64,000 nt of DNA, taken from positions 2,995,501 to 3,059,500 of the forward strand of contig NZ_JAUSVK010000001.1 in assembly GCF_030814655.1 (NCBI RefSeq), written 5' to 3'. This DNA comes from Labrys monachus. GTDB lineage: Bacteria; Pseudomonadota; Alphaproteobacteria; Rhizobiales; Labraceae. Of this stretch, positions 12,677 through 15,581 are shown in pieces (within the stretch, counting starts at the first letter, position 1; every line of letters starts with the position of its first letter). Position numbers and translations under genes: made by a program. The notes under the pieces are model-generated. The model saw only the letters and a program-made list of their open reading frames with translations, had not been told where the DNA came from and did not search any database.

Positions 12677-13882
12677 ATGACGAGGCCCCCCGCCCGATAT
12701 CGTCCTCCCCGGACATCGGCCCGGCGCATGGCGCTCGCGCTCTGTTTCGTCCTCCTCTCGCCGGCCATCGGCCTCGCCGAGCCTTTCGCCACCAAGGCGC
12801 CCGTCGCCTTCCTGATCGACGAGACCAGCGGCAGCGTCATCCTGAGCAAGAATGCCGACCGGCCGGTCGAACCCGCCGCCATGGCGAAGCTCATGACCAT
12901 GGCCGTCGTCGGCCGGGCGCTCGGCCGCAACGAGATCGCGCTCGACACCGTCTATCCGATTTCGGTCGAGACCTGGCGCAAGGGCGGCGCGCCGTCGGGA
13001 AGCGCCACCATGTTCGCGCCGGTCAAGAGCCGGATCGCGGTCTCCGACCTCCTGCGCGGCGCCATCGTGCAGGCCGCCAACGACGCCTGCTATGCCCTCT
13101 CCGAGGGCATGACCGGCAAGCTGGACGGGCTCGTGCCGCGCATGAACGACCTCGCCGCCGAGATCGGCCTCAGCCACACGGTCTTTCGCAACGTCACCGG
13201 CTTTTCGGATCCCCAGCAGACCACGACGGCCCGGGACCTCGCGACGCTGCTCGCCTGGCTGCGCGACAACGAGCCGGCGATCTATGCGATCTATGGCGAG
13301 AAGGAGTTCACCTGGAACAAGATCCGCCAGACCAACCGCAATCCCCTGCTCACCGAGGGGCTCGGCGTCGACGGCGGCTCGACCGGGGCCTCGGACGGCG
13401 CCGGATACGGATTGGTGGTGTCCGCCATGCACGGCAACCAGCATTTCGTCCTGGTCCTGCACGGGCTGCAATCGGTCCGCGAGCGGGCCGAGGAGGCCAG
13501 GCGGCTCCTCGAATGGGCGGAGGGCTCGTTCGAACCGAAGATCGCCTTCGCGAAAGATGTCGTCGTCGCCCATGCTTCCGTGTATGGGGGCAACACGGCC
13601 GAGGTGCCGCTGGTCGCCGACCGCGACGTCAGCGTCCTCGCCCGCAAGGAGGCGGACGAACGCCTGGCGGCGCAAGTCGTCTATGACGGACCGGTGGAGG
13701 CTCCCATCCGGAAGGGCGACGTCGTCGCGCATCTGCAGATCACGCGTGACGGGCAGGTGTCGCAGGAGGTGCCGCTGCATGCCGCCGCCGATGTGCCGAT
13801 CGGAAGTCTTCCCAGGCGCGCATTCGGTGCTATCTACGAACTTGGAGTTGGTCTGGTACGGGGTGAACCAAGGAAGCGATGA
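12677..13882 (+). CDS. DacF-like D-alanyl-D-alanine carboxypeptidase homologue lacking catalytic residues (probable pseudoenzyme)
   Basis: A 401-residue exported protein with the full architecture of a low-molecular-weight PBP. A signal peptide lies within residues 1-36, the peptidase S11 domain at about 40-285, and the PBP5 C-terminal beta domain at about 290-380. All three active-site motifs are altered. The SxxK position is A68-M-A-K71, the SxN position is A133-A-N135, and the KTG position is S235-T-G237. The nucleophilic serine, the SxN serine and the KTG lysine are therefore missing, while the fold-specific surroundings are intact. It sits in the conserved place of dacF before tmk, to which it is joined by ATGA overlap. 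Hydrolysis is unlikely; a peptidoglycan-binding or scaffold role is inferred. Confidence 0.85.
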   Translation: MTRPPARYRPPRTSARRMALALCFVLLSPAIGLAEPFATKAPVAFLIDETSGSVILSKNADRPVEPAAMAKLMTMAVVGRALGRNEIALDTVYPISVETWRKGGAPSGSATMFAPVKSRIAVSDLLRGAIVQAANDACYALSEGMTGKLDGLVPRMNDLAAEIGLSHTVFRNVTGFSDPQQTTTARDLATLLAWLRDNEPAIYAIYGEKEFTWNKIRQTNRNPLLTEGLGVDGGSTGASDGAGYGLVVSAMHGNQHFVLVLHGLQSVRERAEEARRLLEWAEGSFEPKIAFAKDVVVAHASVYGGNTAEVPLVADRDVSVLARKEADERLAAQVVYDGPVEAPIRKGDVVAHLQITRDGQVSQEVPLHAAADVPIGSLPRRAFGAIYELGVGLVRGEPRKR

Positions 13883-14544
13883 GAGGGCGCTTTATCACGT
13901 TCGAGGGCGGGGAGGGGGTCGGCAAGTCCACCCAGATCCGCCGCCTCGCGGAGAATCTCGCCGGTGCCGGCGTCGATGCGCTCATCACCCGCGAGCCCGG
14001 CGGCTCGCCCCATGCCGAGATGCTTCGGGAGGTGCTGCTGTCTGGCGGCGCGCGGCAGTTCGGTCCCCTGGCGGAAACCATTCTCTTCAACGCCGCCCGC
14101 GACGACCATCTCGAGGTCACGATCCGTCCGGCGCTCGCCGCCGGGCGCTGGGTGCTCTGCGACCGCTTCGTCGATTCGACGCGGGCCTATCAGGGCGTGC
14201 TCGGCGAGGTCGGGCCGGACATCATCCGTTCGATGGAGCGGGTCATCGTCGGCGAGACGTGGCCGGATCTGACCGTGATCCTCGACATGCCCGCCGCGAG
14301 CGGCCTGGCGCGGGCCCGGGCGCGCAATGCCGCGGCGAATCGCGGCGAGGCGCCCGACCGTTTCGAAGGCGAGAGCCTCGACTTCCATGAGAGGCTGCGC
14401 GAGGCCTTCCTCGCCATCGCCGACGTCGAGCCGGACCGCTGCGTGGTGATCGACGCCGACGGCCGCCCGGACGACGTCGCCGCCGCCGTGTTCGCGGCGG
14501 TGCGCTCCCGTCTCGGCCTGGCCGGCACCGAGGTGCCGGCATGA
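13879..14544 (+). CDS. tmk: thymidylate kinase
   Basis: A 221-residue dTMP kinase (dTMP + ATP to dTDP + ADP), essential for dTTP synthesis. The P-loop FEGGEGVGKST lies at residues 7-17, the DR motif at CDRFVDST (about 93), and the LID region follows about residue 145. Length is typical. The ATG overlaps the upstream stop (ATGA) and its own stop overlaps holB (ATGA), so three genes are translationally chained. Confidence 0.97.
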   Translation: MRGRFITFEGGEGVGKSTQIRRLAENLAGAGVDALITREPGGSPHAEMLREVLLSGGARQFGPLAETILFNAARDDHLEVTIRPALAAGRWVLCDRFVDSTRAYQGVLGEVGPDIIRSMERVIVGETWPDLTVILDMPAASGLARARARNAAANRGEAPDRFEGESLDFHERLREAFLAIADVEPDRCVVIDADGRPDDVAAAVFAAVRSRLGLAGTEVPA

Positions 14545-15581
14545 GCGAGCGCCTGGAAAGCGACCAGCTCGCCGATGCGCCGCATCCGCGGGAGACCGCG
14601 ATTCTCGTCGGCCAGCACCAAGCGGAACAGGCCTTGCTCGGCGCCTACCAGTCGGGCCGCATCCACCATGCCTGGATCCTCGGCGGCCCCGAAGGCATCG
14701 GCAAGGCGACGCTCGCCTACCGCATGGCGAAATTCGTGCTCGCCAATCCCGATCCCCACCTGACGCTGGCGGCGCGCGACCTCGCCACGGCGCCGGACCT
14801 GCCGGCCGTTCGCCAGATCGTCTCGCGCTCCCATGTCGACCTCACCGTGCTCCGGCGTCTTCCCAACGACAAGACCAAGGGTTTCTTCAGCAATATCCGG
14901 GTCGACGACGTCCGCGACGTCGTGCGCTTCCTCGGTTCGACGGCCGGCGCCGGCGGATGGCGCATCGCGATCATCGACAGTGCCGAGGACCTGGCGCGGG
15001 AGGGCGCCAACGCCCTGCTCAAGGTGCTGGAGGAGCCGCCGCTCCGCACGCTGTTCCTGATCGTCTCCCACCAGCCCGCCCGCCTGCTGCCGACGATCCG
15101 TTCCCGCTGCCGCCTGCTCCCCCTCGCCACGCTGAGCGGGAGCGACGTCGTGGCGGCGGCCCGGGCGGCGCGGCCGGACCTGCCGGCCGGCGCGCTGGAG
15201 GCGGGCGCCTCGCTCGCCCGCGGAAGCGTTCGCCGCGCGCTCGTGCTCGCCGACGGCGAGGGCGTGGCGCTGCACGGCGCCTTGCAGGGTCTGCTCTCGC
15301 GGCTGCCGCAGATCGACGTCGCCGCGGCCCATGCCCTGGCGGACCGCTGCGCCAACAAGGCGGGCGAGGAGAACTTCGCCCTGTTGCTGGACTTCCTCGA
15401 TGAATGGCTGCACGAACGCCTGCTGGCCGAGCGATCTCAATCCCTGCGTCGCCTTGCACGCTGGGCGGAGGTATGGGAAAAAGCACGGGATGCGGCGCGC
15501 GACGTCGAGGCCTACAACCTCGACCGCAAGCCATTCGTGCTCTCAACCCTTTCCATGCTCGCGGAAGCGTCGGTCGCATGA
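14541..15581 (+). CDS. holB: DNA polymerase III delta-prime subunit
   Basis: A 346-residue clamp-loader subunit of the AAA+ superfamily. The N-terminal part shows the degenerate P-loop GGPEGIGKATLAYRMAKF (about residue 52) and the later segment IIDSAEDLAREGANALLKVLEEPP (about 150), characteristic of delta-prime. Zinc-binding cysteines found in gamma/tau are absent, as usual in alphaproteobacterial HolB. It overlaps tmk by four bases and is followed by a 109-base gap before metG. Confidence 0.95.
   Translation: MSERLESDQLADAPHPRETAILVGQHQAEQALLGAYQSGRIHHAWILGGPEGIGKATLAYRMAKFVLANPDPHLTLAARDLATAPDLPAVRQIVSRSHVDLTVLRRLPNDKTKGFFSNIRVDDVRDVVRFLGSTAGAGGWRIAIIDSAEDLAREGANALLKVLEEPPLRTLFLIVSHQPARLLPTIRSRCRLLPLATLSGSDVVAAARAARPDLPAGALEAGASLARGSVRRALVLADGEGVALHGALQGLLSRLPQIDVAAAHALADRCANKAGEENFALLLDFLDEWLHERLLAERSQSLRRLARWAEVWEKARDAARDVEAYNLDRKPFVLSTLSMLAEASVA

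Follow-up and report, generated by a model that had tools for sequence, protein, structure and literature searches.

The window, that is the whole stretch of 64,000 nucleotides analysed here from Labrys monachus, carries a dacF ortholog of the S11 (PBP5-type) family followed directly by tmk. The features to which the text refers are the following:

12677..13882, + strand: dacF ortholog without catalytic residues, 401 aa (translation, Pfam, codons)
12728..12778, + strand: probable signal peptide MALALCFVLLSPAIGLA, residues 18-34 (by eye)
12788..13459, + strand: Peptidase_S11 domain, residues 38-261 (Pfam)
12878..12889, + strand: former SxxK motif, now A68-M-A-K71 (translation, codons, genus comparison)
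12974..13015, + strand: loop WRKGGAPSGSATMF, residues 100-113 (alignment of the main pseudo group)
13073..13081, + strand: former SxN motif, now A133-A-N135 (translation, codons, genus comparison)
13313..13351, + strand: WNKIRQTNRNPLL, residues 213-225, conserved, preceding the KTG strand (alignments)
13379..13387, + strand: former KTG motif, now S235-T-G237 (translation, codons, genus comparison)
13529..13795, + strand: PBP5_C beta domain, residues 285-373 (Pfam)
13808..13861, + strand: C-terminal helix, residues 378-395, where PBP5 has its membrane anchor (AlphaFold2)
13879..14544, + strand: tmk (open reading frame; name from the preliminary description)
14541..15581, + strand: presumably a holB-like gene, after tmk (open reading frame)

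The frame at 12677-13882 (+) translates into 401 amino acids with zero internal stops. The region of the probable signal peptide aligns with the N-terminus of the same-genus orthologs, and M18 (12728) may be the start codon of dacF. An active enzyme of this family has SxxK with a nucleophilic serine, SxN and KTG, and the window protein lacks all three: codon gcc at 12878-12880 gives A68, so that the nucleophile is gone while K71 is retained; gcc at 13073-13075 gives A133 beside a retained N135; and tcg at 13379-13381 gives S235 with G237 retained. D136 is also retained. Translation and codons thus confirm the preliminary description, which had reported the loss of all three motifs in an intact frame. 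Its further claim, that the S11 fold and the C-terminal beta domain are kept, agrees with the Pfam matches (Peptidase_S11, E 1.7e-54, 185.3 bits against a cut-off of 27.6; PBP5_C, E 5.4e-19, 68.6 bits against 21.2), with the AlphaFold2 model, which has a complete PBP5-type fold (mean pLDDT 90.6, pTM 0.85), and with Foldseek, for which the best solved match is E. coli PBP6 (3it9, E 2.1e-36), PBP5 being also among the closest. In this model, the C-terminal helix would correspond to a membrane anchor. Note that Foldseek also matched 9a4z, an integrative model titled YXKC-DACA and presumably of Bacillus origin, which indicates that a protein of the PBP5 type can associate with another protein.

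The last four bases of dacF, ATGA at 13879-13882, are also the first four of tmk (a gap of -4), and the downstream row presumably continues with the holB-like gene and a metG-like gene. The window protein has both marks of a DacF ortholog, a tmk-linked locus and the best match among S11 paralogs, and tmk directly follows dacF in 292 of 298 orthologs; among the six others, four have less than 500 bases of DNA past the gene, while in two from other orders (L239 and L269) no tmk match was found in the ~1.2 kb after it. One rival reading is that dacF is kept solely as a translational lead-in to tmk, the protein itself being unimportant. The 4-base ATGA overlap found in 4/5 genus members speaks for this reading, but only 24/298 orthologs overlap tmk, genomes without dacF still have tmk, and purifying selection acts at the amino-acid level (see below), so that we regard it as scarcely credible. 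Upstream of the window dacF lies a monooxygenase-like frame on the opposite strand, named by eye. RlpA was considered as a neighbourhood partner and rejected, since the rlpA matches of the window genome lie elsewhere, the nearer ~200 kb off; the longer RlpA-type frame of this genome lies ~200 kb from dacF (L317; G000:C1:3209995-3210279).

All five sampled genomes of the genus, which is the single genus representing its family in the samples drawn, lack both serines and the KTG lysine. Indeed, AMAK and AAN occur in 5/5, while the third motif reads STG in the window, VTG in three members and ATG in one. Sequencing error or chance is ruled out by these five members sharing the losses, and since the four other proteins are only 59-67% identical to the window protein, the dead state must be old. 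Moreover, position 235 drifts between S, V and A within the genus, which argues against a single new ligand in that pocket. Within the close trio L005-L007, dacF has a dN/dS of 0.06-0.09, and tmk, compared across the same three genomes, one of 0.07-0.08. This tightness is not seen when the window protein or L008 is one of the pair (0.25-0.43), and such pairs carry little weight because their dS of 0.85-1.08 is near saturation; between tmk of the window genome and that of the trio, the value is 0.18-0.19, below the dacF pairs of the window protein and L008. The preliminary description had proposed a selected pseudoenzyme rather than decay, and had named as the opposing case relatives that are intact at this locus, with this one alone degenerate at neutral rates. 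The opposite was found: the four same-genus relatives (4/4) are degenerate at the same motifs, and selection on the protein is purifying, which within the genus is clear for the close trio. The pseudoenzyme part of the claim is thus well supported, and a selected non-catalytic state is very probable for the window genus.

At a larger scale, ortholog detection with E up to 1e-45 in 199 Hyphomicrobiales genomes gave an ortholog in 181, the 18 others being without a match at this threshold. The motifs were read in 180 of the 181 (G090 was left out), and at least one of S68, K71, S133, N135 and K235 is lost in 55/180 genomes (called dead below), a count from which 80 named loci, picked by similarity to the window protein, were kept apart. 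These losses fall in 13/41 families, in seven of which every sampled member is affected. The loss is thus not peculiar to this genome and is a trait of much of the order. Conversely, none of 40 sampled orthologs from other alphaproteobacterial orders has a loss, these 40 being part of 126 matched and taken mostly from the top of the list. In the deduplicated set, 88/229 rows of the order have losses versus 0/40 rows from other orders, the former proportion being biased upward, since some of these loci were picked for their likeness to a dead query, and the partial row L311 being counted as intact. Among 297 complete rows (the 40 from other orders included), K235 is lost in 90, S133 in 79, S68 in 20, K71 in 13 and N135 in 9. 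The affected genera include Mesorhizobium, Rhizobium, Sinorhizobium, Shinella, Brucella and Ochrobactrum, as well as Phyllobacterium, Aurantimonas, Kaistia, Ancylobacter, Chelatococcus and Hansschlegelia. Many members outside the window genus have an intact SxxK and have lost KTG and/or SxN alone; residual acylation is therefore possible there, and normal activity has likely been lost in these lineages, judging from their motifs.

Most losses belong to one main dead clade, which holds Rhizobium, Mesorhizobium, Brucella, Kaistia and the window genus, and several independent ones occurred besides. In a 65-row tree built with a mixture model after removal of the motif columns, 27 dead rows form one clade (support 89/83), and five changes are needed, four of which are forced by well-supported branches. 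The separate losses in this tree are the SxxT forms (f35 and Chenggangzhangella), the MTG form of Ancylobacter, Chelatococcus and the f31 family, while the f14 form (L011) branches next to the large clade at an open fork. Larger quick trees gave 8 changes (269 rows), 9 (298 rows) and 8 (176 rows); the large dead clade is also single in another tree (SH-aLRT 96) and is split in two on the 298-row tree. The main dead clade may thus have one or two deep origins. Within it, the KTG lysine is absent in 67/67 rows, and S68 is lost in sub-lineages only (the window genus, the kin of Kaistia, Phyllobacterium, the NFAK form and L010), which suggests that the KTG lysine was probably lost first and the nucleophile later. 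Two of the other lineages deserve mention. In the f31 family (G034, G072, G125 and G165), the SxN serine and the KTG threonine were lost independently (NAN, KPG), and this lineage is MreB-negative and nested among MreB-containing relatives. In five loci of f35, Chenggangzhangella and Hansschlegelia (L013, L043, L055, L064 and L074), the SxxK lysine is lost (SMAT, SVAT) and KTG is kept, the reverse of the main clade.

Our comparison of substitution rates showed that dead and intact orthologs are under the same constraint. Using disjoint pairs of the same state with 78-97.5% identity and dS of 0.02-1.2 (pairs beyond these limits being dropped), the median dN/dS was 0.083 for 27 dead pairs versus 0.098 for 27 intact pairs (Mann-Whitney p 0.49), and relative to tmk, for which values were available in 25/27 dead pairs, dead and intact did not differ either (p 0.97). 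In addition, no broken frame was found among 269 orthologs, each checked from the middle of its match up to 60 bases before the 3′ end.

The preliminary description had suggested looking for a second, catalytically intact DacF in the window genome; none was found by our ortholog search, and the genome has three S11 genes in all, the two others being intact and 28-32% identical to the window protein. More generally, 42/42 sampled S11 paralogs (32 from 13 dead-DacF genomes and 10 from five intact-DacF genomes) have intact SxxK, SxN and KTG, so that in these genomes catalysis was lost at the dacF locus only. Each dead-DacF genome has two or three other S11 genes, and at least four S11 genes are present in 21/55 dead-DacF versus 12/125 intact-DacF genomes. 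Fifteen of these 21 genomes belong to families f24 and f42, where redundancy may therefore have aided the loss. Note that f24 and f42 have four or five S11 genes in 15/16 sampled genomes, the usual number being three. Compensation by gene duplication was rejected as a general cause, as 34/55 dead-DacF genomes have just three S11 genes. As for the 18/199 genomes without an ortholog, they indicate that the function is dispensable in some families. In six of them, from three families, tmk could be located: L278, L279, L281, L282 and L283 have an RlpA-like frame (named by eye) before tmk and no S11 frame between the two, L280 being less clear. The absence of dacF between the RlpA-like frame and tmk in L278-L283 (f18, f46 and f4) suggests deletion at the locus.

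Such absences, together with the two or three further S11 genes of each dead-DacF genome and the more frequent fourth one, are what would be expected of plain decay, in which a redundant enzyme is caught early on its way out. However, dN/dS of the dead orthologs matches that of intact ones and tracks tmk, all checked frames are unbroken, and the dead clade covers many families; decay is thus largely refuted, and we consider it highly improbable.

A link with the loss of MreB was also considered. MreB was found in 24/199 genomes, in agreement with the statement, in an excerpt of PMC8546619, that Rhizobiales lack MreBCD, RodA and PBP2. A dead DacF occurs in 0/23 MreB-positive versus 55/157 MreB-negative genomes (naive Fisher p 0.00016). 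On the tree, four supported independent pairs are available and MreB differs in about one of them (sign test p ~1). An association between MreB loss and dead DacF does not survive correction for descent and is retained as a lead only.

Among 354 columns, the one that relaxed most in the dead clade is 235, followed by 133, the positions of the KTG lysine and the SxN serine, whereas T111, W213, V78 and G52 vary less there than they do in intact relatives; this comparison was matched in sequence number and not in identity (0.47 dead, 0.54 intact), and mean entropy is 1.51 in the dead versus 1.28 in the intact set, the dead set being also more diverse. Across the main pseudo group (80 sequences), the residues W100, R101, G103, G104, M112, F113, N214, I216 and Q218 are invariant, and conservation at T111, W213 and E388 exceeds that of intact orthologs, although it may partly reflect shared descent. 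T111, W213 and E388 are candidate positions of a binding surface.

Two readings keep the old active site in use. In the first, the protein would bind stem peptides or nascent peptidoglycan without cutting them, thereby shielding or sensing them, in line with the near invariance of K71, N135, D136, WRxGGA, TMF and WNxIxQxNRN in the same 80 sequences. In the S11 family, however, it is the KTG lysine that holds the substrate carboxylate, and this lysine, essential for the activity of PBP5, is gone from a position that is now free (V36, A30, G15, S7 and M6 percent); in addition, 22 percent have K instead of R221, and R186 is less strictly kept (61 against 92 percent). Substrate binding of this kind is rather unlikely. 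The second reading is an altered enzyme, in which another nucleophile, e.g., T111, would act with K71 in a new hydrolase or transferase. K71 is kept in 96 percent and N135 in 98 percent of the pseudo group, and T111 reaches 98 percent there versus 57 percent in intact orthologs, but K71 itself has disappeared from one sub-lineage (SMAL, SLTL) and, separately, from the SxxT group, and we know of no precedent; this makes a new chemistry very unlikely.

Altogether, the fold, a probable export and anchor and the selection were kept while the chemistry was lost, which suggests that the protein most likely acts by binding. We therefore favour, with a probability of roughly 0.6, an ancient selected pseudo-carboxypeptidase that would be anchored in the membrane and serve wall enzymes in the periplasm as an adaptor or regulator; this mechanism, taken by itself, stands at even odds. 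As to partner, site and mechanism, we infer the following. In a lineage that very probably gave up D-Ala-D-Ala carboxypeptidase catalysis and retained the DacF protein, this protein would be exported and held by its C-terminal helix at the inner membrane, facing the periplasm. There, it would bind wall enzymes to link or regulate them, and the contact is likely made by the conserved sequences WRxGGA..TMF and WNxIxQxNRN or by PBP5_C. The other S11 enzymes, and possibly M15 proteins, would then take over the trimming of pentapeptides. In S. meliloti, as an example, four annotated serine DD-carboxypeptidases and RgsC, with an M15 domain, are described in an excerpt of PMC7327166.

Extending this reading to the order, we tentatively propose, at somewhat less than even chances, that the protein annotated as the DD-carboxypeptidase DacF across a large Hyphomicrobiales clade, rhizobial genera included, is a pseudoenzyme of ancient origin. 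A single conversion, through loss of the KTG lysine, would have made it an adaptor without catalysis that serves the wall machinery in bacteria lacking MreB, and the same conversion would have taken place again several times. Judged by its domains alone, the gene would pass for a DD-carboxypeptidase. If DacF is dead in about a third of the sampled order and yet equally constrained, its conserved part was never only catalysis; and repeated independent conversions at one locus would, if true, provide a clean comparative system, which could reveal what PBP5-type proteins do apart from catalysis where MreB is absent. Our searches of open-licence papers showed no report of an inactive DacF of this kind. 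Two studies mention related genes: depletion of the regulator RdsA in R. etli lowers dacF, among other genes (PMC9022086), and in A. tumefaciens, a gene called dac, which may or may not be the DacF ortholog, shows synthetic lethality with the loss of group 3 LD-transpeptidases (PMC11527210).

Compared to known systems, the window protein resembles E. coli PBP5 and PBP6 (DacA and DacC, S11) in fold and two-domain layout, with 31-37 percent identity in structural alignments. PBP5 has a C-terminal membrane anchor, and the C-terminal helix of the window protein lies at the same position. Unlike PBP5 and PBP6, the window protein has other residues in place of the two serines and the KTG lysine, and judging from this the acyl-enzyme route would be impossible. 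The intact DacF proteins of other Hyphomicrobiales and other Alphaproteobacteria are similarly tmk-linked, share the same domains at ~29-47 percent identity and are under equally strong selection, but they carry SxxK, SxN and KTG (154 in-order rows, one of them partial, and 40/40 sampled rows from other orders). Non-catalytic relatives of wall hydrolases kept as regulators are represented by the degenerate LytM factors (EnvC, NlpD), which also occur in Agrobacterium according to an excerpt of PMC8416486, and other pseudopeptidases, namely homologs without catalysis acting by binding, are treated in a review on metallopeptidases (PMC11266112, likewise in excerpt). By analogy, DacF may be compared to the degenerate LytM regulators of amidases, as a relative of a wall enzyme without catalysis; unlike them, it is of a different fold and enzyme family.
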